From a virus: a stretch of DNA of 38,983 bases. Position 1 is the first letter of the stretch. Every line of letters begins with the position of its first letter. A program made the translations under genes and the position numbers. Below are positions 267-10,649 of the stretch, in pieces. The stretch spans positions 1-38,983 of the IMG/VR virus record IMGVR_UViG_3300044701_005040. One strand, given 5' to 3'. Under the pieces are notes generated by a model. It had not been told where the DNA came from. It did no database searches and saw only the letters and a program-made list of their open reading frames with translations.

Positions 267-908
267 TTAATTGTTAGTTAATTTTTGCAGTGCCCTAATG
301 GCAATTTGTAAATACGGGCTAGCATATGCTAAAACCTCACCATCTTGTTTAACCGCTGCTAAAACAACCTCTTTATCTCCCCTTAATGGGTCGCTAACAT
401 ATTGTAAAGCCCAGCCATTTCTTTTTACAGCTTCCAAAACCACCTCTATATCGTTTCGCAATTCTTTACTTGCATATTTTAAAGCAAAACCATTGTGCCT
501 GACAGCCTCCATAACTATTTCTTTATCGTTTCGCAATTCCCAGCTAGCATATTTTAAAGCCCAACCATCTTGCTTGACTGCAATTTTTACAATCTCAGGA
601 TCGTCTCGCAATTTATCGCTAACATATTGTAAAGCCTCACCATTTTGCTTAACTGCAATTTCTACAATCTCTCCATTATCTTGTAACCGCTCATTAGCAT
701 CTCTCAAAGCCAAGCCATTTTGTTCGACTGCAATTTTTACAATCTCAAAATCATCTCGTAATGCACCTGGCAAAGTATAACCATTGTGCTTGAAAAACTC
801 CAACACTACTTCTTTATCTGCTTGTAACTCATCACTACACAAAAGAAAAATTTTTGGTTCCTTTTTTATTAATTCTAATGCCTCATTTTTATCTGTTATT
901 ATTTTCAT
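267..908 (-). CDS. DUF4116 repeat protein
   Basis: 213 residues. After an N-terminal segment of about 25 residues come roughly seven tandem copies of a 23-25 residue unit with core (D/N)xEIVxxAVxQNGxALxYAS(x)xLR. These are DUF4116 repeats, predicted helical, without catalytic residues. The protein is probably a binding scaffold, but the ligand is unknown. It follows a TTGACA-N16-TAAAAT promoter and a 10-bp 5' hairpin. A second DUF4116 gene follows immediately, so this is an early two-gene unit. The antisense frame over the same span is a shadow created by the repeats. Confidence 0.88.
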   Translation of the reverse strand: MKIITDKNEALELIKKEPKIFLLCSDELQADKEVVLEFFKHNGYTLPGALRDDFEIVKIAVEQNGLALRDANERLQDNGEIVEIAVKQNGEALQYVSDKLRDDPEIVKIAVKQDGWALKYASWELRNDKEIVMEAVRHNGFALKYASKELRNDIEVVLEAVKRNGWALQYVSDPLRGDKEVVLAAVKQDGEVLAYASPYLQIAIRALQKLTNN

Positions 909-934
909 ATATTATTTTATTTTAAGTTATTAAG

Positions 935-982
935 TTGCCGTTTGGTTTATTTTCAAATCTATTCGTAAATAGCAAACGGCAA
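935..982 (-). promoter_or_regulatory. 5'-terminal mRNA hairpin, promoter P1
   Basis: TTGCCGTTTG (982-973) pairs perfectly with CAAACGGCAA (944-935), a 10-bp stem. Its 28-nt loop holds a second hairpin, CTATT-TACG-AATAG (972-959), whose UACG is a UNCG-type tetraloop. The stem begins 5 bases after the -10 box, essentially at the expected +1. The DUF4116 gene starts 27 bases after the hairpin. Confidence 0.7.
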
Positions 983-987
983 GGTAA

Positions 988-1015
988 ATTTTAATTAGTT
1001 ATTTTTAGTTGTCAA
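988..1015 (-). promoter_or_regulatory. sigma-70 type promoter P1
   Basis: TTGACA (1015-1010), 16-base spacer, TAAAAT (993-988), reading leftward toward the DUF4116 genes. It overlaps the 3' end of the 1005-1193 gene. The -35 is a perfect consensus and the -10 matches 5 of 6. Confidence 0.7.
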
Positions 1016-1193
1016 TATCTTTTTCGTTATTAATGTTTAAATTAAAGCCAAAATATGTAATAATTAAAAAACTATTAAAAATAGTCATTATTGCCACAAA
1101 CATTGCTATGCTGTTAAATGCAAAAGCAAAACATAACATTGTTTCAAAAAATATAATTAGCAAGATTAAGCAAGATTTTATAAGGTATTTCAT
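1005..1193 (-). CDS. small membrane protein
   Basis: 62 residues, almost wholly hydrophobic up to about residue 50, in two likely transmembrane segments (about 5-27 and 30-52) with a polar NNEKDIDN tail. Its ATG overlaps the stop of the 1190-1603 gene by four bases (ATGA), which supports translational coupling. Unrecognised; small two-helix phage membrane proteins have many roles (exclusion, holin-like, inhibitor), and nothing here chooses between them. Confidence 0.55.
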   Translation of the reverse strand: MKYLIKSCLILLIIFFETMLCFAFAFNSIAMFVAIMTIFNSFLIITYFGFNLNINNEKDIDN

Positions 1194-1603
1194 AATTTTT
1201 CGTAAAATTGTTTTGGTTGATAATAATTTTTAGTTTTTATAACCTCCAAGCACCATTTCGGGTATAATTGAAAGCTAATAAAACCATTTTGCAAGACCGA
1301 GTTTTGAAACCAGTCGCTTTTAAATAAAAACATAAAGCAACCGTGATTAACTGGCACTACAATAGAATTGCCAAGTTTATTTAAAATAACTACTTGATGC
1401 AATAAATTTGTTCGCATAAAACCACAAAAGCCATAATCCGATCTGCTATCGTGCCAACCAAACCAACATTCTTTTTTGGCTGTTTCAATAAAAAAATGAT
1501 TTTTTGCATCATTGTAATATTTTAGCATAAGCTCATCAATATGCTTGTATAAATCTTCTTGTAGCCAGAAGTTGTTATTTTGTGTGATTATTCTTTCTTT
1601 CAT
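1190..1603 (-). CDS. hypothetical protein
   Basis: 137 residues, soluble, rich in aromatic residues, with a central Trp/Cys/His-rich stretch (ECWFGWHDSRSDYGFCGF, near residues 45-62) and a C-terminal YPKW. No family recognised. It sits one base after the stop of 1605-2099 and is coupled by ATGA overlap to the small membrane protein downstream. The ATG at 1601-1603 follows the A/T leader shared by other leftward genes. Confidence 0.65.
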   Translation of the reverse strand: MKERIITQNNNFWLQEDLYKHIDELMLKYYNDAKNHFFIETAKKECWFGWHDSRSDYGFCGFMRTNLLHQVVILNKLGNSIVVPVNHGCFMFLFKSDWFQNSVLQNGFISFQLYPKWCLEVIKTKNYYQPKQFYEKL

Positions 1604-1604
1604 A

Positions 1605-2099
1605 TTATTTTGATTTTAAGTTATTGTTAATTTGTTTTATGTATGTTTGTATATTTTTTTGATTTTGTATTGCTTGTTGCCCTTCTAATTGCTTTTTTTC
1701 GCTATTTAGTTGCAACCTTTTTTGATGGTTTTTAATTTCTTGTAAATAATCGTCTGGGTAGTCAAGATAATATCTTACCAATCTAGCTCCGCTAATTTTA
1801 CAAATTTCATATTTACTTTTTTCAATTTTCTTTGGCAAAAAAGATTTTAGCCAGTCTGCAACAGCAGGGCAACCTTGATAACCATAAGCATCATTCCACT
1901 CTTTGGTGGTTGTATTGAGTATGATGTGGCTAGTATGCTCTTGAAACATTTTATTAGTCAATTTATCGGCTAGTGCTTCGTAAATCATTATAATTTTAGC
2001 ATCAGACTCTTCTTTGCTTGCAAAAAAATTATCTTTTATCAAGTTGTAGTTTTGTTTAAAAACTTTATAATCTAAAATTTTCATATTACTGGTTGTCAT
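1605..2099 (-). CDS. possible helicase-loader-like replication protein
   Basis: 164 residues. The middle part (KMFQEHTSHIILNTT, then W, then GYQGCPAVADWLKSFLP) resembles the general layout of phage helicase-loader-type proteins: a helical domain followed by a P-x-x-A-x-W/I segment. The tail (about 120-164) is basic, Gln-rich and probably coiled coil. The gene overlaps the DUF6291 replication protein by 14 bases, the usual place for a loader. The resemblance is weak; an ordinary hypothetical protein is equally possible. Confidence 0.55.
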   Translation of the reverse strand: MTTSNMKILDYKVFKQNYNLIKDNFFASKEESDAKIIMIYEALADKLTNKMFQEHTSHIILNTTTKEWNDAYGYQGCPAVADWLKSFLPKKIEKSKYEICKISGARLVRYYLDYPDDYLQEIKNHQKRLQLNSEKKQLEGQQAIQNQKNIQTYIKQINNNLKSK

Positions 2100-2877
2100 A
2101 AATTTTTGATAAACGTTCCTCTTGCTCTTTTTGTCTATGCTCCAATTGTTGTTGCTTGGTTAAAAAAGTTGGTTTTATCGGTTCGGCATTAACTAGCAAT
2201 ACTTCGTGAGTTTTGAAACCATCTTGCATTGTTTGATTAAGCCAAGTGGCTACATTTTTAGTATATCGGTTATTCTTTTTGCAATCTTTCAAGTATAATT
2301 CTAAACAATCCATTATTTTTTGATGCGAGAATTTAGCTCTTGCTTTGTTATAAGATTTTAAAGCTGTATTTTTACAACCTTTGCTTGTAAAAGTGCCATT
2401 ACTTACAACTACTGGTGTATAGTGTTGCCATAATTCTTGAAAATCATTTTCAAAACCGACATGTATTTCTTTATTAGGTTTATTAGATATAGATATATTT
2501 ATATCTTTATCTTTATCTGTAACACTATCACTATCACTATCACTGTCACTATCGGCTTTTTTGGGTTTGCTTGGGTTATTTTGGGTTCCCAAATATCCCA
2601 GTGGGTTTATTTGGGTTTTTGGTCTACCTCCTTTTGCACCATTGATTTTGTTTCTTTCAACAACATTTTGATATTTTTGCTCGTCTCTTTTAAACTGGTT
2701 TAGGAATGGTTCAAAAATAATAGCTATAAATCTATCTTGTGGCAAAATATTGCTTGTTTGATAATCATAGATAGCTTTAAATAGCTTACCTGCCTCCTCT
2801 TCGGTTAGCTGGTTAAGAATTGATAAACTATCCTTGTGTAGTAAAAAAGACTTATTGATTGTTGTTTGATTTGTCAT
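2086..2877 (-). CDS. DUF6291-type phage replication initiator/organiser
   Basis: 263 residues in three parts. Residues about 10-85 (LHKDSLSILNQLTEEEAGKL through FxxFKRDEQKY) match the DUF6291 N-terminal domain of phage replication proteins. A low-complexity linker with repeated Ser-Asp and Lys-Asp pairs follows (about 105-135). The C-terminal domain (about 145-225) has the ELWxxY...A...YxxA...WLNQ layout of replisome-organiser C-domains. Likely role: origin binding and helicase recruitment. It lies between a small upstream gene (26-base overlap) and a possible loader (14-base overlap), a compact replication operon. A microsatellite-like run encodes the Ser-Asp linker. Confidence 0.75.
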   Translation of the reverse strand: MTNQTTINKSFLLHKDSLSILNQLTEEEAGKLFKAIYDYQTSNILPQDRFIAIIFEPFLNQFKRDEQKYQNVVERNKINGAKGGRPKTQINPLGYLGTQNNPSKPKKADSDSDSDSDSVTDKDKDINISISNKPNKEIHVGFENDFQELWQHYTPVVVSNGTFTSKGCKNTALKSYNKARAKFSHQKIMDCLELYLKDCKKNNRYTKNVATWLNQTMQDGFKTHEVLLVNAEPIKPTFLTKQQQLEHRQKEQEERLSKIYDNQ

Positions 2878-3076
2878 AATTTTGCTTGATTAACTTTTCT
2901 TTTAAATTGTCTTTATAGTTCCATAAAATAGATTTTATATTGATTTTACTAGTCGGTGAAATTTTTTCAGCTTCAAGTATAGGCATAATGTATCCTACAA
3001 GCTTTTTTGTTTCTTCTGTTAGTAAATCTTCTAATAAATCCATAATAACTTCACTTGAATTACTTTGTTTTTGCAT
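2852..3076 (-). CDS. small protein at head of replication operon
   Basis: 74 residues, predicted helical, acidic in the first half (MDLLEDLLTEETKKL) and basic in the second. No family recognised. Unlike most leftward genes it has a clear Shine-Dalgarno, AAGGAG, eight bases before the ATG at 3074-3076. It is the first gene after promoter P2 and its 5' hairpin, and it overlaps the replication gene by 26 bases. It could be a replication accessory or a leader-coupled regulator; the sequence does not say which. Confidence 0.65.
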   Translation of the reverse strand: MQKQSNSSEVIMDLLEDLLTEETKKLVGYIMPILEAEKISPTSKINIKSILWNYKDNLKEKLIKQNYDKSNNNQ

Positions 3077-3091
3077 TACTGCTCCTTTTGT

Positions 3092-3122
3092 TTGGCAGAC
3101 TGGGGATTAAAAAGTCTGCCAA
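3092..3122 (-). promoter_or_regulatory. 5'-terminal mRNA hairpin, promoter P2
   Basis: TTGGCAGAC (3122-3114) pairs perfectly with GTCTGCCAA (3100-3092), 9 bp, around the 13-nt loop TTTTTAATCCCCA. The stem starts five bases after the -10 box. The loop matches that of the hairpin at 4072-4099 although the stems differ. Confidence 0.75.
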
Positions 3123-3127
3123 GGTTA

Positions 3128-3155
3128 ATTTTAAATTATATTTTTTAATTGTCAA
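3128..3155 (-). promoter_or_regulatory. sigma-70 type promoter P2
   Basis: TTGACA (3155-3150), 16-base spacer, TAAAAT (3133-3128), directed at the replication operon. Same spacing and boxes as P1 and P4. Confidence 0.72.
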
Positions 3156-3197
3156 TTTTAAAATGGAAACTCTTTTTTTCTAGTTAATTTTGCCATA

Positions 3198-3500
3198 TTA
3201 CTTTGCTTCAAAAATGTTGCTAATTATTTTTACTATATTATCGTTTTTTACTCTAAAATCAGAAGTAACTGTAAAAGTAAATCCTCGCCCCTTAACAATA
3301 TCTCCCTCATAAATATCGACTCCGTTTATATCTGTATAGCCAGTAAATTGCATATAAGTTAAATGCTCGTCTTGGAATGGATCAAAATCTATCTCATAGC
3401 ACCCGTGAAAATGCCTTAAAACTTGCTCGTGGCTTATCATTTTTTTTGTTAAGTTATCCCAAGCTCTAAATTTTATTGTTTTTTTTAAATCGTTTTTCAT
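3198..3500 (-). CDS. YopX family protein, shortened
   Basis: 100 residues. The YopX signature is clear: KFRAWD (about 10-15) near the N-terminus and YMQFTGYTDINGVDIYEGDIV (about 49-69; first and last parts diagnostic) with the usual IIxNIFE end. YopX proteins are small phage and prophage proteins of unknown function. Members usually run about 120-140 residues. Here only about 20 residues separate EGDIVK from the terminal motif, so part of the C-terminal domain is missing. It starts five bases after the stop of the broken pentapeptide-repeat gene, behind a leader nearly identical to that gene's. Confidence 0.85.
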   Translation of the reverse strand: MKNDLKKTIKFRAWDNLTKKMISHEQVLRHFHGCYEIDFDPFQDEHLTYMQFTGYTDINGVDIYEGDIVKGRGFTFTVTSDFRVKNDNIVKIISNIFEAK

Positions 3501-3504
3501 ATTT

Positions 3505-3734
3505 TTATAATTTTTTGTTAATTAGTTTTTTATTTTCTAAAATGGTACCTTTTAAATTAGTAAATCTTAAATCAGTATATCTAAAATTAGCCACTCTAAA
3601 ATTAGCTCCGCTAAAATAGCACCTTCAAAATCAGCATACTTTAAATTAGCACCTCTAAAATCAGCACCTTGCAAGTTTTGTCCGCTAAAATCTTTGCCTT
3701 GCAAGTTTTGATTACTAAAATCTTTATTTTTCAT
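3505..3734 (-). pseudogene. pentapeptide-repeat protein, frameshifted
   Basis: From ATG at 3732-3734 the frame encodes A(D/N)F/LxG repeats (DFSGQ, NLQGA, DFRGA, NLKYA, DFEGA), then loses the pattern and stops at 3567. In the next frame the repeats resume at once (FSGAN, FRVAN, FRYTD, LRFTN, LKGTI) and stop at 3505-3507. The break lies at 3612-3620, where GCTATTTTAGC lacks one base compared with neighbouring repeats; restoring it gives one 76-residue protein. The single-base loss is in a T/A run, so it may be a real mutation, a sequencing error or, less likely, recoding. Pentapeptide-repeat proteins form a right-handed quadrilateral helix; some mimic DNA and inhibit gyrase. Confidence 0.8.
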
Positions 3735-3755
3735 ATTTTTATAATTTTTTGTTAA

Positions 3756-4046
3756 TTATTTTTTAAAAACATATTGATCGTTAGGGTAATGATGCTTTCC
3801 GTGGTAATATAAACCTAAAAATTCATTAAATAAATTATAATAAATTTTATCTTGCTTCCAGATAAGGCAGTTTTTTATACCATCGAAAATTTCATTTGCC
3901 ACCATAAATTCAAGTTCAAAATAACCTTGGTTTTTTGACTTAATAATGTATTTATAGCCTTCTGCTTGCATTTTATCAATAAAATCTCGGCTTTCTTGGT
4001 TAATGTAAAGATTATCAATAACCGTTGCTTTATAGTAATTATTCAT
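3756..4046 (-). CDS. hypothetical protein
   Basis: 96 residues from ATG at 4044-4046. I prefer this to a TTG 33 bases upstream because that would lie inside the P3 5' hairpin and because ATATATG follows the shared leader. The protein is Tyr/Asn/Lys rich with a His cluster near the C-terminus (YYHGKHHYPNDQY). No family recognised. It is the first gene after promoter P3. Confidence 0.65.
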   Translation of the reverse strand: MNNYYKATVIDNLYINQESRDFIDKMQAEGYKYIIKSKNQGYFELEFMVANEIFDGIKNCLIWKQDKIYYNLFNEFLGLYYHGKHHYPNDQYVFKK

Positions 4047-4071
4047 ATATTTTTTATTTAAGTTATTAAGT

Positions 4072-4099
4072 GACGGCAAGGGGATTAAAAATTGCCGTC
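4072..4099 (-). promoter_or_regulatory. 5'-terminal mRNA hairpin, promoter P3
   Basis: GACGGCAA (4099-4092) pairs perfectly with TTGCCGTC (4079-4072), 8 bp, with the loop TTTTTAATCCCC. It begins six bases after the -10 box, and the ATG lies 25 bases beyond it. Confidence 0.75.
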
Positions 4100-4105
4100 T
4101 TTATA

Positions 4106-4134
4106 ATTTTAAGTTATTAAAAAATAATTGTCAA
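4106..4134 (-). promoter_or_regulatory. sigma-70 type promoter P3
   Basis: TTGACA (4134-4129), 17-base spacer, TAAAAT (4111-4106), in the gap between the 4151-4519 and 3756-4046 genes. Confidence 0.72.
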
Positions 4135-4150
4135 GTACTTTTTAAATAAT

Positions 4151-4519
4151 TTAATCATTTAAAGTAGTATTAATAATGTTTTTGATTATGGTAAATTTTG
4201 CAACATAATTAATCGCCCCCCACGTGTTACCTTCAATTTCGCATATAGCTTGGTTTGTTTGTGTATCAAAAATAAAATCGCCTTCCCTATAAATTGTATT
4301 AGTAAGCTCAAAAAAATTTGTTAATGGAATATCTTTTAAGCTTATGCAATCTTCTAACAAATCAGTCACCAGCTCCGCAAAGCCGTCTTCACCAGGGAAG
4401 CTACTTTTTAAATTAATGCTATAATATTCTATGATTTTTATTAAATTTTTATTTGTTAATTTATTATAAATAAAATCGGTTGTTAATAATACTTTTTTTA
4501 AATTTTGTTCGTATTTCAT
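4151..4519 (-). CDS. hypothetical protein
   Basis: 122 residues, soluble, mixed charge, with an acidic centre (GEDGFAELVTDLLEDC) and a C-terminal hydrophobic helix. No family recognised. ATG at 4517-4519 follows the AATTAAC(A/G)AAAAATTATAAA leader shared with 3500 and 3734. The gene starts four bases after the stop of 4524-4841, so the two are in one unit. Confidence 0.65.
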   Translation of the reverse strand: MKYEQNLKKVLLTTDFIYNKLTNKNLIKIIEYYSINLKSSFPGEDGFAELVTDLLEDCISLKDIPLTNFFELTNTIYREGDFIFDTQTNQAICEIEGNTWGAINYVAKFTIIKNIINTTLND

Positions 4520-4523
4520 ATAT

Positions 4524-4841
4524 TTATAATTTTTCGTTAATTAGTTTAATTATTTCGTTTGATGTTTGGCGAATTTTCCAATTTCTAAATACCTCACCTT
4601 TAATTGGTTTGTTTTGGCAAAAATCTTGCAATGCTTTTATATAAATTCCGTTGTTTCTAGTGTTGCCATAAAATAAATCCATATAACCCTCGCCGTGCAT
4701 TTTAGCAATAATAATATTATAAACTTGTTGCAATAGCTTATTATTGCCTTTAAGGTTATTTTTGTAAGTTTCGCAACAATAGTCGAAAAATAAATTTAAA
4801 GCTTCTTGTCTTTTTTTTGATGGAGATTTTGTTTGTTTCAT
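4524..4841 (-). CDS. hypothetical protein
   Basis: 105 residues, basic N-terminus (KQTKSPSKKRQEA), predicted helical throughout, with an aromatic stretch YMDLFYGNTRNNGIY at about 53-67. No family recognised. The leader reads TTATTAACTAATAACAAG with no Shine-Dalgarno. The layout is like a small nucleic-acid-binding early protein, but nothing proves this. Confidence 0.6.
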   Translation of the reverse strand: MKQTKSPSKKRQEALNLFFDYCCETYKNNLKGNNKLLQQVYNIIIAKMHGEGYMDLFYGNTRNNGIYIKALQDFCQNKPIKGEVFRNWKIRQTSNEIIKLINEKL

Positions 4842-4885
4842 AATTTTACTTGTTATTAGTTAATAAATAAAGTTATTTGTAATGA

Positions 4886-5209
4886 TTAGTTAAATAATTT
4901 TTGTTTTTTGAAAATAAAAAATTTCAAGTTTTTTGTGCCTTGGCTATAAACCTTGTTTGTACCTTGCTTATAAACCTCAATTAGAGTTCCTCCTGTATCT
5001 TTTATAGGCTCTAAAACTTGCTCCTCTTTGCAAGAGCTTAATAAAAATAAAATAGCCATAATTAAAAAAAGACTTATAAAACCGCTAAATTCAATAAGTT
5101 TATTTAAACTTTTGTGCTTTTTTTTGGTAAATGTGCCCGAATGTTCGTGATAAAAAAGAGTTTCAAAAGAAAAGTTGTTTTTATTAAAATAGGTTTTTAT
5201 TTTTTGCAT
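4886..5209 (-). CDS. small membrane-anchored or lipoprotein-like protein
   Basis: 107 residues: a basic N-terminal segment of about 38 residues, a hydrophobic segment (about 41-59) ending in LLSSC, then a polar, Lys-rich tail. LLSSC looks like a lipobox, but the 38 residues ahead of the hydrophobic core are too long for a classical signal peptide. Either translation starts at an internal Met or the protein is simply single-pass. In the tail, (T/S)(x)GT-K occurs several times (VYKQGTNKVYSQGTKNL). Function unknown. It follows C-rich element copy A. Confidence 0.55.
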   Translation of the reverse strand: MQKIKTYFNKNNFSFETLFYHEHSGTFTKKKHKSLNKLIEFSGFISLFLIMAILFLLSSCKEEQVLEPIKDTGGTLIEVYKQGTNKVYSQGTKNLKFFIFKKQKLFN

Positions 5210-5245
5210 ATAATTTTTTATTTAAGTTAATTAAGTTGTTAAAAG

Positions 5246-5273
5246 GGTTTGTTTGTGGTGTGGTGGTGGTTAG
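5246..5273 (-). repeat. C-rich intergenic element, copy A
   Basis: 28 bases directly after the stop codon of the 5274-5615 gene. On the leftward strand it is rich in C and A with no G, starting CTAACCACCACCACACCACA. It matches copy B at 25 of 28 positions. Confidence 0.7.
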
Positions 5274-5615
5274 TTAATCCGCTATGTAAGTTTCTAAACA
5301 TTCAATCAAATTTGCTTCTAAATTGCAATAATTAGTACTTCTATTCTCTTCAAGAAAATCATATAACTCTGTAAAATCAGTATTATAATAATCATTAATT
5401 TGTTGTTTTACCTCTTCAAAAAGATCCTCAAATTTTTCGGCTAAATCTCTTAATTCTTGGCTATATGTCCAGTAGCCATCTGGATCTAAACCGCCAAGTC
5501 CGTGATATGTAAGATTTTCTTCATACTCTTCTGCAGCATTTTGATTTTTTATTAAAAATTCAAGGTTATCAATAAATTCTTTGGTAAAAAGTGTTTTAGT
5601 TGTTTTATTTTTCAT
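5274..5615 (-). CDS. acidic hypothetical protein
   Basis: 113 residues, strongly acidic after the first 30 (repeated E/D with Y, L and F, for example AEKFEDLFEEVKQQINDYY). It has the net negative charge seen in DNA-mimic antirestriction or inhibitor proteins, but no family signature is visible and many small early phage proteins are acidic. First gene after promoter P4 and its AU-rich 5' hairpin; followed by C-rich element copy A. Confidence 0.65.
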   Translation of the reverse strand: MKNKTTKTLFTKEFIDNLEFLIKNQNAAEEYEENLTYHGLGGLDPDGYWTYSQELRDLAEKFEDLFEEVKQQINDYYNTDFTELYDFLEENRSTNYCNLEANLIECLETYIAD

Positions 5616-5637
5616 ATAGTTTTTTAATAAGTTAAAT

Positions 5638-5664
5638 CAAAATCAAAAATGCTTTTTAATTTTG
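5638..5664 (-). promoter_or_regulatory. 5'-terminal mRNA hairpin, promoter P4
   Basis: In the leftward RNA, CAAAAUUAAAAA pairs with UUUUUGAUUUUG around a GCA loop: 12 pairs including one U-G wobble. The hairpin begins eight bases after the -10 box. Confidence 0.6.
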
Positions 5665-5672
5665 TTATGTAT

Positions 5673-5700
5673 ATTTTAATAAGATAAAAATAGTTGTCAA
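5673..5700 (-). promoter_or_regulatory. sigma-70 type promoter P4
   Basis: TTGACA (5700-5695), 16-base spacer, TAAAAT (5678-5673), driving the 5274-5615 gene and those beyond it. Just upstream, 5711-5730 is an AT palindrome (9-bp stem, AACTTTTTT with AAAAAAGTT) that may end the clamp transcript. Confidence 0.68.
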
Positions 5701-5732
5701 GTGTTTTTTTAACTTTTTTTTAAAAAAGTTTT

Positions 5733-5760
5733 GGTTTATTTGTGGTGATGTGGTGGTTAG
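5733..5760 (-). repeat. C-rich intergenic element, copy B
   Basis: 28 bases, four bases after the stop codon of the sliding clamp gene. On the leftward strand it begins CTAACCACCACATCACCACA, with no G. It differs from copy A at three positions. Confidence 0.7.
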
Positions 5761-5764
5761 TTTG

Positions 5765-6961
5765 TTATAATCTTAACGGCATTAAAGTCATTGTAATTGC
5801 TTGATTGCCATCTACACATTCTATTTTTAACGGGGAGTAGGCATCTTGAAAATTTAAAACAATATTACTTTCATTTGTAAAATTTTTATAGGTTTCAATA
5901 AATTTTAATAAAAATTTATTATTTAAACCTATTTTAAAATCGGTTGCATCTTGGCAACTAGCATCCAAAGGGGCTTGAAACATAATAGTGTCTTTATTTT
6001 TTTTAGTTAATAAAAATCTATTATGATTAATTAAATTAAATTCTAATGCATTATGTTTATTATCATTATCAATTTTGTTAGCCATTTTTAAAGTTTCAAT
6101 AAAATTTTTTAAGTCGGTTGTTATTTTAATTTTTATCCATTCCTCCCTTGGTATAACCTTATCCGCTTCAGGGAATTCTGCATCTATTAACCTAGCGTCT
6201 ATTCTAAAATTATCAGAAGTGATTGTAACAGAATATTTTTTAAAAATAATTTTTACATCATTATTTAAAATATCTGCACTACCATTAATTTTTTTACATA
6301 ATTCAGTAGGTAAAATAAAAAAATTGTTATTCGAATTGTCAATAGTACCTAAATTATCAAAATTATTTATTTTTATTAATACATGACCAGTGGTCGCATA
6401 AAAACCAAGCCCATTATCTTTAAATTTTATGGCCACGCCTTGCAAATATGGTCTAGTCTCATCATTACTTACAAAATTTAAGCTATGTTTAATGTTTTTT
6501 ATAAGAAGATCTCCATTAATTTTAAATTCTAATAAATTTTTATTATCTTTAAAGTTGGTAACTCTGCCTATATCAAATGCATCTTGCGCACCATTATCGA
6601 AATCTTGAAACTTCTTAATCGGTATCATAAATGCTCCGATGCCAATAGCCGTTTCGCCTATTGTAAATTCTAAACTATCCATTTTTTTACAACTAGTCAA
6701 AGCACTAAATAATTGTTTTGTTTCAACTAAAAATTCTTCACTTGGCAAAGCAAGATCGGTTTTAATTGTGAAAATGTTTGTCAAAATAGTATCTTGATCG
6801 GTATTTTTTATAGTTAATAATTTTTTATAATAATCAATTATAAAATAAGTTTGTTGCAGAGTAGGTAAATGTTTTTCTTTATTTAAATTGAAAACTTTCA
6901 AAGTGTTTAGAAAATCTTTTTTATTTGTAATTGTTATTTTTTTTATTAATGTAAAGTTCAT
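5765..6961 (-). CDS. dnaN: DNA polymerase III beta subunit-like sliding clamp
   Basis: 398 residues, slightly longer than the usual 365-375. Landmarks of bacterial beta clamps appear in order: SNDETRPYLQGVAIKF (about 165-180, compare ETRPxLxGV), FYATTGHVL (about 187-195, compare ATDGHRL), IDAEFPEADKVIP (about 262-274, compare IDGxFPDYxxVIP), and the C-terminal end ITMTLMPLRL (compare VMPMRL). The first of the three domains is divergent. The product should form a ring on DNA that tethers the host replicative polymerase, since no phage polymerase is present. It stands between the J-domain gene and P4, and its stop is followed by C-rich element copy B. Clamp genes are uncommon in phages of this size. 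Confidence 0.88.
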   Translation of the reverse strand: MNFTLIKKITITNKKDFLNTLKVFNLNKEKHLPTLQQTYFIIDYYKKLLTIKNTDQDTILTNIFTIKTDLALPSEEFLVETKQLFSALTSCKKMDSLEFTIGETAIGIGAFMIPIKKFQDFDNGAQDAFDIGRVTNFKDNKNLLEFKINGDLLIKNIKHSLNFVSNDETRPYLQGVAIKFKDNGLGFYATTGHVLIKINNFDNLGTIDNSNNNFFILPTELCKKINGSADILNNDVKIIFKKYSVTITSDNFRIDARLIDAEFPEADKVIPREEWIKIKITTDLKNFIETLKMANKIDNDNKHNALEFNLINHNRFLLTKKNKDTIMFQAPLDASCQDATDFKIGLNNKFLLKFIETYKNFTNESNIVLNFQDAYSPLKIECVDGNQAITMTLMPLRL

Positions 6962-6987
6962 ATATTTTATTTTTTTTTAAATATTAA

Positions 6988-7464
6988 TTAAGCAAGCTGT
7001 TTTTTGTTTTGTAATTTATCCAGCCCGTAAGTCAATACTATGTCGTGCCAAGGCTTGGCGGCAACTCTTTTTCTTTTTCTTTTTTTAGCTTTTCCAGTGC
7101 AATCAAAATACCACATTTTTTTTGATTTTGACCAAAAGTAGCCAATATCTTTTATTCGCTCAATAACCTCTAAACTGGGCTTCGCTGCAAAATCCAACCA
7201 TAACCATCTCCCAGTGATTAAAATTTCCAAGCCATCATGATCAAATAAAAAGCTTAAATCATCCAAAGCCCCCATGATCTCGGCAGGCTTATCAGATTCA
7301 GGAGTTGCTATATCATTAAAAATAACCTCATATTCATTTTGCATTGCAACAAAAGAAAAATGATCTCCCCCGAGATCGGGATGCATTTTAAAGCATAATT
7401 TTTTATAATCTTTTTTTAGCTCATCTAGGTTTTGATAATGTTTATTAAAAAAGTTTGTTGTCAT
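6988..7464 (-). CDS. J-domain (DnaJ-like) protein
   Basis: 158 residues. Residues about 10-55 form a J domain with the HPD motif at 28-30 (MHPDLGGD), which in this family stimulates the ATPase of DnaK. Residues about 78-120 (LEILITGRWLWLDF, then IGYFWSKSKKMWYF) form a small C-terminal module seen behind J domains in phage proteins. A very basic KKRKRKR patch follows. It probably recruits host DnaK to a phage complex, perhaps in replication given the adjacent clamp; lambda uses host DnaJ in that way. It lies 26 bases upstream of the clamp gene in the same unit. Confidence 0.85.
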   Translation of the reverse strand: MTTNFFNKHYQNLDELKKDYKKLCFKMHPDLGGDHFSFVAMQNEYEVIFNDIATPESDKPAEIMGALDDLSFLFDHDGLEILITGRWLWLDFAAKPSLEVIERIKDIGYFWSKSKKMWYFDCTGKAKKRKRKRVAAKPWHDIVLTYGLDKLQNKKQLA

Positions 7465-7489
7465 ATAATTATTAATTTTAGTTTTTTAG

Positions 7490-7786
7490 TTAGTTAGTTA
7501 AATTTAATCTTGATAAAATAAATTTATCGCCTCCGACGAATTGACTAACAAACGCAAGGTTTTTTTTAGTGTGTTTAATTTCAATATTTTGATATTGTTT
7601 TATAAAGTCATTATAAATTAAATCATCATTAAAAAAATAATATTTATAATCCCAAGATGCCAGCCCCTTTTTTTTGCCATTTTTATAAAAATTTTGTGAT
7701 ATTGTAATAATTTGTAAAGATTGATTAATTTTTATATTTGTTTTATAATCATTATCAAATAAAGTAATTAAATTTTCTGTTTTCAT
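7490..7786 (-). CDS. hypothetical protein
   Basis: 98 residues, Lys/Asn/Tyr rich, mixed beta pattern (LQIITISQNFY, YYFFNDDLIYNDF). No family recognised. It sits between C-rich element copy C upstream and the J-domain gene 25 bases downstream, in the P5 transcription unit. Confidence 0.6.
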   Translation of the reverse strand: MKTENLITLFDNDYKTNIKINQSLQIITISQNFYKNGKKKGLASWDYKYYFFNDDLIYNDFIKQYQNIEIKHTKKNLAFVSQFVGGDKFILSRLNLTN

Positions 7787-7811
7787 ATTTTTTTTTATTA
7801 TTATTAAAAAG

Positions 7812-7834
7812 GTTTGTGTGTGGTGATGTGGTGA
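7812..7834 (-). repeat. C-rich intergenic element, copy C
   Basis: 23 bases immediately after the stop codon of the 7835-8215 gene, matching copy B with two differences (core CACCACATCACCACA on the leftward strand). The outer five bases of the other copies are not conserved here. Confidence 0.65.
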
Positions 7835-8215
7835 CTACTGGTTTATTAGATTAAAAAGCTCTTCAAAATTTATTTTGTATAACTCATCTTTTTGGCGATC
7901 GTTTTGGTGTAAAATATTCGCAAGTGTGCAACTATCAATGTTTTTTATATCGTAACCAAGCCCGGCCGCTAGTTCGACGCTGTTGCGCAAAGTTGGATCA
8001 TTTTCGGTTAAATATTCAATTGCATCATAATAATAAACAAAGGCTTCGCCCGTTAGCTCATCAAAATAACCGGTAAAATAATTTTCTAAATGTTCGCTAT
8101 CTTCCCAAGTATCTTGCAAGCAATAATCCGTTAAACCATCAATTAAGTCAATGCTTATTGATTGGCTTAAAAAATCTTTAATTTGCTGTTTTTTGTTGTT
8201 TTCTATTAATATCAT
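7835..8215 (-). CDS. acidic early protein, first gene of leftward operon
   Basis: 126 residues, very acidic, with YYYDAIEYLTENDPTLRNSVELAAGLGYD at its centre (about 61-89; core YDAIEYL and NDPTL). I recall similar small acidic proteins in phages and plasmids, sometimes linked to antirestriction, but I cannot name the family with confidence. Being the first leftward gene after strong promoter P5 makes it a likely immediate-early product. A DNA-mimic role is only an inference from charge and position. Confidence 0.65.
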   Translation of the reverse strand: MILIENNKKQQIKDFLSQSISIDLIDGLTDYCLQDTWEDSEHLENYFTGYFDELTGEAFVYYYDAIEYLTENDPTLRNSVELAAGLGYDIKNIDSCTLANILHQNDRQKDELYKINFEELFNLINQ

Positions 8216-8239
8216 ATTTTTTTAAGTTAATTAAGTTGC

Positions 8240-8264
8240 AAAATTATTTTATTAGAATAATTTT
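8240..8264 (-). promoter_or_regulatory. 5'-terminal mRNA hairpin, promoter P5
   Basis: AAAATTATT (8264-8256) pairs perfectly with AATAATTTT (8248-8240), 9 bp with a 7-nt loop, starting nine bases after the -10 box. The shared leader AACTTAATTAACTTAAA follows before the ATG at 8215. Confidence 0.65.
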
Positions 8265-8273
8265 ATTAACATA

Positions 8274-8302
8274 ATTTTAAAGCAAAAAAAAATATTTGTC
8301 AA
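8274..8302 (-). promoter_or_regulatory. sigma-70 type promoter P5 (main leftward)
   Basis: TTGACA (8302-8297), 17-base spacer, TAAAAT (8279-8274), in the divergent region between early leftward and late rightward genes. The A/T tracts on both sides could act as UP elements. It drives the operon from 8215 toward the clamp gene. Confidence 0.75.
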
Positions 8303-8384
8303 CAACTTTTTTCACTTTTTTTCACATTATTTTAAAAAAATTTTAAAGCCTTGAAAGTATAAAAAAGGTTGCAATAAAAAAAAA

Positions 8385-8441
8385 TTGACAAATAAAAAAA
8401 AAAAATTAAATTAAAGCGTATATAAGTTATAATCATTATAA
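8385..8441 (+). promoter_or_regulatory. rightward promoter region before terminase
   Basis: TTGACA at 8385-8390 is followed after 16 bases by TAAATT (8407-8412, weak -10). A perfect TATAAT at 8428-8433 lacks a good -35. TTATAA-TCA-TTATAA (8427-8441) is a 6-bp palindrome that could form the 5' hairpin if the first promoter is used. An (AAT)n run at about 8440-8458 follows. Which -10 is used cannot be settled from sequence. Confidence 0.45.
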
Positions 8442-8472
8442 TAATAATAATAATAATTAACTCGCCTGCATA

Positions 8473-8988
8473 ATGCCTAAACAAAATAATAAAGATAATG
8501 CCAGTAATAAGATTAATAGCATTGCAAAACCTTTATCGGTTAAAGATAAGATTATTAATAACATTGATAGCATCATAAAAGATTTAGAAGCTAATAAAAG
8601 TTATAAAGAGATTAGTTTAAAATTAGGGGTTAGCATGGGGTGGTTGTGCGAGGTCTTGAACTCCCCTGAATATCGCGCACGCAAAACCCAAGCTTTACAG
8701 ATTGCAAGCTATCAATTACTCGAAGAAGGGGAGCAGTGCCTAAATGATATTGATGACGGAGCAACGAATGCAAAAGTTCGCAGGCAAGCGGAATTATATC
8801 AACACAAAATCTATTTAGCCAAAACCAAAAACAGGGCTGAACTTGACTTGAACTATAAAGAGCCAGTTTCTGAACAAATAGCCATTAATGTTATAACTCC
8901 AGATTGGCTAAATTGCCTGAAAAATAACAATACTGGCAAAAATGAAATTCTCGCAAATAATTTGCTTGAAAATGCAGAAAAAAAATGA
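8473..8988 (+). CDS. terS: terminase small subunit
   Basis: 171 residues. After a basic N-terminus there is a helix-turn-helix (about 44-62, YKEISLKLGVSMGWLCEVL) and then SPEYRARKTQALQIASYQL followed by RRQAELYQHKIYLAKTKN. This is the layout of Sf6-like small terminases: an N-terminal DNA-binding domain and a helical oligomerisation region. The family recognises the packaging site and regulates the large subunit. Position ahead of the large subunit supports the call. The gene ends with TGA at 8986-8988 after an eight-A run. Confidence 0.8.
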   Translation: MPKQNNKDNASNKINSIAKPLSVKDKIINNIDSIIKDLEANKSYKEISLKLGVSMGWLCEVLNSPEYRARKTQALQIASYQLLEEGEQCLNDIDDGATNAKVRRQAELYQHKIYLAKTKNRAELDLNYKEPVSEQIAINVITPDWLNCLKNNNTGKNEILANNLLENAEKK

Positions 8989-9320: not shown

Positions 9321-10649
9321 TTGAACGAAAAGTTAATTACTATACCATACCTATGGCAACCAAGGGACTATCAACTAGATTTGTTTAAGAAACTAGTGTT
9401 TGAGAACTATAAAAGGGCTATACACATTTGGCACAGAAGAGCAGGAAAAGACCTGTTTGGCTTAAATATACTATTGTTTTTTGCATATTATGGCAAGGTT
9501 GGCACTTACTGGCACATTTTCCCTAAATACTCACAAGGTGAAAAAGCTGTTTGGCAAGAAAGCACTAGTGATGGCAGAAAATATATTGATTATATACCAA
9601 AAGAGTTAATACACAAAATAAATCAAAAAGAATTAAGAATAACTTTAAAAAATGGTAGCATATATCAAATAGTTGGCTCTGACAATACTGATAGTTTAAG
9701 GGGGGCAGGAATTAAAGGTGCAGTATTTAGTGAATATGCAGACCAAGATCCTAGATCGTGGGAAATTATTAAACCAATGATTGAAGCAAATGATGGTTTT
9801 GCTTTATTTAACTTTACTCCAAAAGGACAAAATCATAGTTATCATTTATACAATATGGCAACAAAACTTCCTGAAACTTGGTATACGGAAATTAAAACAA
9901 TAGAAGATACAAGGGCTTTAAGTGCTGAAAAAATAGAAGAAATTAAAAAAGAAATAGCTTTAGAAGGTAAAACATTAGATTTTTTTAAACAAGAATATTA
10001 TTGTAGTTTTACAAATCCTATTGAAGGTGCATATTATGGCGATTGTATGAGAGAATTAACATTAAAAAAACAAATTGGCGATCATGTTCAATATGATAAT
10101 TTGCTACCAGTTTATACTTTTTGGGACTTGGGTGTGGCGGATGCTATGGCAATTTGGTTTGCGCAATTTGTTGGTAATGAAATTAGAATAATTGATTATT
10201 TAGAAGGCACTGGCAAAGGTTTAGATTATTTTATTAGGGAAGTTAAAAACAAAGTTTATGTCTATGCAGATCATTATGCTCCTCACGATATTTTGGTAAG
10301 AGAGTTATCTGATTCAAAAACAAGGTTTGAAAAAGCAGAGTTATTAGGAATTAGATTTCAATTAGCCCCAAATATACCTAGACAAGATGGAATTGATGAA
10401 GTTAGAAAAATTTTACCAAAATGTTATTTTAATGAAAGTAATACAATAACTGGCATAAATTGTTTAACAAATTATAAAAAAGAATTTGACAATAAAAATA
10501 ATGTATTTAAAATAACTCCAAAGCACGACTGGTCTTCAAACGGAGCGGATGCTTTTAGGTATTTAGCTATATGTTACACTCAAAAATTAGCAAATAAACA
10601 AATGGCTAATCAAAGTGTAAAAGCTATTGACAGAAAATATATTTATTAA
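9321..10649 (+). CDS. terL: terminase large subunit
   Basis: 442 residues. The start is TTG at 9321-9323, chosen because GAGAGGG (9307-9313) is a well-placed Shine-Dalgarno and no ATG precedes the conserved IPYLWQPRDYQ. ATPase domain: RRAGKD (39-44) as Walker A and GAVFSEYA (133-140) as Walker B, with Ser where Asp is usual and the catalytic Glu at 138. Nuclease domain: TFWDLGVADAMAIW (about 265-280) and the late acidic motif in HDWSSNGADAFRY (about 408-420). The enzyme translocates DNA through the connector and cuts concatemers. The Walker B substitution is the only irregularity. Confidence 0.93.
   Translation: MNEKLITIPYLWQPRDYQLDLFKKLVFENYKRAIHIWHRRAGKDLFGLNILLFFAYYGKVGTYWHIFPKYSQGEKAVWQESTSDGRKYIDYIPKELIHKINQKELRITLKNGSIYQIVGSDNTDSLRGAGIKGAVFSEYADQDPRSWEIIKPMIEANDGFALFNFTPKGQNHSYHLYNMATKLPETWYTEIKTIEDTRALSAEKIEEIKKEIALEGKTLDFFKQEYYCSFTNPIEGAYYGDCMRELTLKKQIGDHVQYDNLLPVYTFWDLGVADAMAIWFAQFVGNEIRIIDYLEGTGKGLDYFIREVKNKVYVYADHYAPHDILVRELSDSKTRFEKAELLGIRFQLAPNIPRQDGIDEVRKILPKCYFNESNTITGINCLTNYKKEFDNKNNVFKITPKHDWSSNGADAFRYLAICYTQKLANKQMANQSVKAIDRKYIY

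Follow-up and report, generated by a model that had tools for sequence, protein, structure and literature searches.

Hairpins of changing sequence at a constant position behind the predicted early promoters of a small group of freshwater phages

It is known that a single 5' stem-loop can stabilise a bacterial mRNA; in the small group of freshwater phages described here, which includes IMG/VR virus record IMGVR_UViG_3300044701_005040, most early promoters retain a stem-loop of changing sequence, and the promoter-hairpin units pass from gene to gene. The whole of this record (38,983 bases, GC 27.5%) is called the window, and its five leftward promoters are called P1 to P5. Late (class III) transcripts of phage T7, e.g. 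the gene 10 leader, start with a hairpin that is followed by an A/U-rich leader. Promoter-early stem-loops (PeSLs) of T4-like phages, associated with the names of Arbiol (2010) and Comeau (2014), are reportedly small mobile cassettes of an early sigma-70 promoter and a stem-loop that act in gene shuffling. The put RNA of phage HK022 comprises about 70 nucleotides (nt) and two stem-loops of conserved sequence (PMC9378689). In Escherichia coli, the ompA and papA transcripts carry 5'-terminal stem-loop stabilisers (Emory 1992; Bouvet & Belasco 1992; Bricker & Belasco 1999; cited in PMC3997798). Such 5' structures stabilise mRNA because RppH and RNase E depend on single-stranded 5' ends (PMC3997798).

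The five promoters were located by a consensus scan on the minus strand, exactly where a sequence-only reading had placed them. P1 (988..1015), P2 (3128..3155) and P4 (5673..5700) have the form TTGACA-N16-TAAAAT, and P3 (4106..4134) and P5 (8274..8302) the form TTGACA-N17-TAAAAT. They are the sole 11/12 sigma-70 matches within 900-8500, where the scan returned 62 promoter-like sites vs 49.5±6.9 in shuffles. A sixth perfect match at 10486-10513 (+) lies inside the terminase gene, has no comparable stem and is probably a chance product of coding sequence.

Close behind the -10 of each of the five, stems of 8-12 base pairs (bp) were found that start 5-8 nt after it, in agreement with the earlier description. 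The predicted transcript 5' ends were folded as RNA and compared with dinucleotide shuffles to give z scores. All five hairpins lie on the minus strand. The P1 hairpin (935..982) starts 5 nt behind the -10 and pairs 10 bp (TTGCCGTTTG/CAAACGGCAA) around a loop of 28 nt that contains an inner stem (z -5.4). That of P2 (3092..3122) also has 10 bp (TTGGCAGACT/AGTCTGCCAA) and starts 5 nt after the -10, with an 11-nt loop, TTTTAATCCCC (z -3.5). At P3 (4072..4099), 8 bp (GACGGCAA/TTGCCGTC) enclose the 12-nt loop TTTTTAATCCCC, 6 nt after the -10 (z -4.9). The stems of P4 (5638..5664; 12 bp, CAAAATTAAAAA/TTTTTGATTTTG, one G-U, 3-nt loop, z -3.0) and P5 (8239..8265; 10 bp, TAAAATTATT/AATAATTTTG, terminal G-U, 7-nt loop, z -1.3) both begin 8 nt after the -10. 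For P1-P4, leader shuffling gave the lowest p that the test can return, 0.001, and for P5 p = 0.019; by its folding z, P5 alone is not significant. Individually, P1-P4 are far beyond chance; the P5 hairpin is credible mainly by the company of the others. No match was found in Rfam. The stems had been described as differing in sequence, and this holds for the arms, which are unrelated among P1-P5, but not for the loop TTTTTAATCCCC, which P2 and P3 have in common. The loop (T)TTTTAATCCCC also occurs on a further stem in the related contig G010 (L147 8316-8460; arms TGTGTAGGCA/TGCCTACACA, loop TTCAATCCCC). Either the loop may have a role or the stems may have been exchanged.

Six related contigs were obtained by terminase and DNA-pattern searches: G001 (pieces L087/L098/L115/L116), G002 (L089), G003 (L094/L117/L118), G004 (L095), G005 (L096/L119/L120) and G010 (L112/L146/L147). 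L088 is the same virus as the window. A promoter and a leader, but no hairpin, were demanded by the patterns that yielded G003, G004, G005 and G010, so that these four contigs test the design without bias; G001 and G002 first came up via the P2/P3 loop sequence, and a hairpin-free pattern matched both again. With DnaN as query, only the same virus was found, two early proteins as queries returned no additional clade members, and megablast of the early arm against named phages gave no match. In the seven contigs, promoters were listed as TTGACA-N15–18-TA[ACGT]AAT with an open reading frame behind it.

A stem with a score ≥14 and a start 0–9 nt after the -10 was present at 22 of the 27 non-redundant early promoters, vs 3.8 expected from leader-by-leader dinucleotide shuffles. 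When each distinct stem or hairpin-less leader type was represented once, the count was 17/20 vs 3.35±1.5 (maximum 9 in 1000 simulations), and 10 vs 0.55 expected among distinct types at the stricter threshold of 18. In a scan of 160 nt on both sides, strong stems peaked in the 0–9 nt bin alone (19/27); the other bins held 0–9/27, the second-highest being the neighbouring 10–19 nt bin. The stem starts at a median of 6 nt after the -10, the predicted +1; sigma-70 transcription normally begins at about this distance. From the stem end to the ATG the median is 23.5 nt, mostly 19-27. The promoter-hairpin design is real and reaches beyond the window. The repeated cassette postulated from the window sequence, with structure and position kept over sequence, was seen across seven contigs, and the relatives examined retained pairing at these positions.

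At the P4 gene, the window has CAAAATTAAAAA-gca-TTTTTGATTTTG behind its promoter, whereas the orthologue has TTAACAAAATA-attt-TATTTTGTTAA in G001 and G003 and AACAAAAT-aaaaaaag-ATTTTGTT in G002. Window and G003 are identical here over the 24 bases through the ATG and differ in promoter and hairpin: the unit was replaced and the architecture retained. Among the distinct stems, six pair types occur at pair 1 and three to five each at pairs 2–6. In the P4-type unit, the loop is variable (gca, gta, gcg) and the 24 stem bases are invariant; in G002 and G003, this unit of the window stands before another gene, whose window orthologue (4524–4841) is without a P4-type promoter. The P3 promoter and hairpin recur with 97–100% identity before unrelated genes in G001 and G002, where identity to the window falls to 34–38% in the upstream flanks and to 38–48% at the coding starts. 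The P1-type unit is found in G001 and G005 before other genes than in the window, with 93–97% identity between the two contigs (upstream 30–34%, coding 42%). Variants of the P2 hairpin occur in G001 and G004, and G002 contains one unit twice, before different genes. These comparisons indicate that architecture, not sequence, is conserved and that the promoter-hairpin unit is exchanged whole. From a MAFFT alignment of 15 leaders, RNAalifold predicted no pairs, since stems that differ in sequence and length cannot be lined up. The leaders were compared with the -10 as anchor instead, and what they show is a shared architecture rather than covariation column by column.

At their rightward promoter, G001, G003 and G010 share one and the same core, TTGACACTTTAATTGATGCTTGTAAAAT, but no conserved stem. 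Together with the gene order, this makes an early regulon plausible. Few promoters match the consensus in more distant phages, and the hairpin was found there at 0/6 promoters of TerL relatives at ~61% identity, at 1/11 of relatives at 37–47% and at 0/1 of three named phages. In two presumed host genomes, a stem followed 4/21 same-motif promoters, which is near chance.

These presumed hosts were identified by a terminase search that led to four genome contigs, the closest two of which (96% and 62%; L121, L122) lie in metagenome-assembled genomes (MAGs) of Rickettsiales. The DUF4116 repeat family was represented by 23 matching stretches in one Rickettsiales MAG, 4 in the other and 0 in 14 control genomes. 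The virus is probably a podovirus-like phage with a host among the Rickettsiales, with some chance of binning error. Both presumed-host MAGs encode RNase E/G and RppH above curated cut-offs (PF10150, NF001938).

By a little, we favour the reading that the unit is a dispersed, swappable early-expression cassette whose 5' stem-loop would shield early mRNAs from RppH and RNase E. The cassette would consist of a sigma-70 promoter close to the consensus, a 5'-terminal stem-loop that begins at the predicted +1 and has about 6-13 bp, and an unstructured A/U-rich leader of 22-26 nt, usually without a Shine-Dalgarno sequence, ahead of the ATG. The contig sequences directly show the three modules and how they are spaced, their enrichment across the clade and the exchange of units between genes; the start at the stem foot and the protection are presumed. 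Host RNA polymerase would start at the foot of the stem, and the paired 5' end would withhold unpaired 5' nucleotides from RppH and block the 5'-end entry of RNase E. Unprotected, a naked A/U-rich leader is a typical target of RNase E; behind the stem, it would persist long enough for translation. The sequence of the hairpin would be of little importance, so that unrelated hairpins could replace one another. A +1 stem that shields a naked A/U-rich leader predicts free sequence and fixed position, and this matches the observation. At the hairpin-less promoter G005 15532, the untranslated region is just the ~24-nt A/U leader; the hairpin thus looks like a module inserted between +1 and the standard leader.

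Several points weigh against this reading. P5 folds weakly (-3.3 kcal/mol), and several AU-rich stems of relatives reach just -3 to -6 kcal/mol. Four promoters of the same class are without a hairpin (G001 31754 and 35844, G005 18639 and 15532). A test of G-U pairs against A-C mismatches did not separate selection on RNA from a DNA palindrome. The hairpin is placed at the 5' end by a predicted +1, its stabilising effect is presumed, and so is the host.

It seems unlikely that the hairpin mainly serves translation, either by insulating or positioning the A/U leader that lacks a Shine-Dalgarno sequence, or by forming a boundary or standby element ~23 nt before the AUG, where the 30S footprint ends. 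The tight distance from stem end to ATG would suit such a role, as would the scarcity of Shine-Dalgarno sequences throughout the window. The stem, however, keeps as tight a distance to the -10 as to the ATG, operon-internal genes have similar A/U leaders without a hairpin, and the bare 24-nt leader of G005 15532 seems sufficient.

The sequence-only reading had also considered the repeats as a protein target, i.e., as inverted repeats that bind a phage or host protein, as a DNA operator over +1 or an RNA site, and so control the early promoters. Inverted repeats at +1 do occupy classical operator positions, three G004 promoters have the same arms (ATCAAG/CTTGAT), and P2 and P3 have their loop in common. 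Yet the window arms TAAAATTATT, CAAAATTAAAAA, GACGGCAA, TTGGCAGACT and TTGCCGTTTG contain no common half-site, their loops of 7, 3, 12, 11 and 28 nt (P5 to P1) give no fixed spacing, and arms differ between orthologous promoters, which makes this idea improbable. A repressor or activator operator as main function was rejected, as the window promoters have neither a half-site in common nor a fixed spacing. G004 departs from this in part, and its shared ATCAAG arms make an operator more plausible in that contig.

We give rather little credence to pure recombination cassettes, in which the repeats would serve gene shuffling, as proposed for the T4 PeSLs, and the hairpin would have no expression role of its own. 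Such cassettes would account for identical units before unrelated genes, twice in one genome, and for the replaced unit and retained leader at the P4 orthologue. Recombination needs a common sequence, though, and here stems that differ in sequence hold one position, at a set distance from the -10. Very improbable is an action of the nascent hairpin on RNA polymerase in promoter escape, pausing or antitermination. HK022 putL, which forms stem-loops, is located directly behind an early promoter (PMC9378689), and the clade hairpins likewise head early operons; they are, however, single, short and sequence-divergent, unlike the put RNAs, and the early arm has almost no terminator-like sites (4 vs 2.6 expected). 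A terminator as main function was discarded, there being neither a terminator-like site nor a T-run at any of the five hairpins.

The genes behind the five promoters are all on the minus strand. P1 precedes a gene for a DUF4116 repeat protein (267..908; Pfam PF13475, E 4e-76). Behind P2 (2086..3076) lie the genes of a 74-amino-acid protein (2852-3076) and of a DUF6291/replication-initiation-like protein (2086-2877). The P3 gene (3756..4046) is without a family match, and those of P4 (5274..5615; 113 amino acids; orthologues at 89/61/49% in G003/G002/G001) and P5 (7835..8215; 126 amino acids) are of unknown function. The A/U-rich leaders between hairpin and ATG span 22-26 nt. The leader of P5 (8216..8238, -) is without a Shine-Dalgarno sequence, and further leaders of the same type lie at 909-934, 4047-4071 and 5616-5637 (-). 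Among the window promoter leaders, only that of P2 has a Shine-Dalgarno-like AAGGAG; the sequence is absent from nearly all window genes, early and late. A/U-rich stretches precede the starts both in 9000-34500 (+) and in the early arm.

A CA-rich element, ACCACNNCACCACANA, occurs at 5252-5267, 5739-5754 and 7817-7832 (-) of the window (3 vs 0.02 expected) and adjoins operon-internal leaders on their upstream side. At two hairpin-less promoters of relatives (L098 4364-4395; G005 18639, L120), a CA-rich stretch, ACCACAAACACACCACA, replaces the hairpin directly after the promoter. The CA-rich element may be an alternative 5' leader element. The window encodes a sliding-clamp (DnaN-like) protein at 5765-6961 (-), and in G002 a 388-amino-acid gene with a start similar to this protein lies behind the same kind of promoter. 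Upstream of thyX, at 38200-38285 (-), a promoter-like TTGACA-N16-TAGAAT is followed by the tRNA T-arm-like GGTTCAAATCC and a T-run; ARAGORN found no tRNA there.

A broader claim can be put forward tentatively, at somewhat below even chances: that a lineage, probably of Rickettsiales phages, caps nearly all its early transcripts with an encoded, largely sequence-independent 5' hairpin that is exchangeable with the promoter. If true, these phages would counter mRNA decay in the host by a protection of 5' ends that is modular and genome-wide. The clade offers a natural library for gauging the 5' structure an mRNA needs to evade RppH and RNase E, and insulated expression parts could be drawn from it for systems that are AT-rich and poor in Shine-Dalgarno sequences. 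It also provides candidate phages of free-water Rickettsiales, for which few phages are known to us.

Compared with described systems, the hairpins share with T7 class III leaders a place ahead of an A/U-rich leader; T7 has phage-polymerase promoters, a near-constant sequence and a Shine-Dalgarno site, whereas the clade has host-type promoters and divergent stems. Like HK022 put, they are RNA structures at or close to the point where early phage transcripts begin, and unlike put, with two stem-loops of common sequence, each is one stem of 6-13 bp with arms unrelated among the five sites. As reported for PeSLs, a strong early sigma-70 promoter and an adjacent stem-loop move as a cassette; PeSL stems are reportedly terminators ('promoter-terminator motifs' in the 2014 title), while the clade stems start at +1 and lack a T-run. 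In the limited literature searched, no phage-wide use of +1 hairpins with divergent sequences was described. Like ompA and papA, the clade has a stem-loop at the predicted 5' end, then an unpaired leader, an arrangement expected to hinder RppH and RNase E. If transcription starts at the predicted +1 (median 6 nt after the -10), the stem would lie within a few nt of the 5' end, the position that defines the ompA type. Host RppH and RNase E, which the ompA type requires, are encoded in the MAGs of the presumed hosts. Unlike ompA and papA, which are single host genes, the hairpins head most early promoters of a phage clade, have unrelated stems and moved with the promoter, and their stabilising role is a presumed one. 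Most likely, a known type of 5' stabiliser has here been turned into a modular, phage-wide early-promoter cassette.

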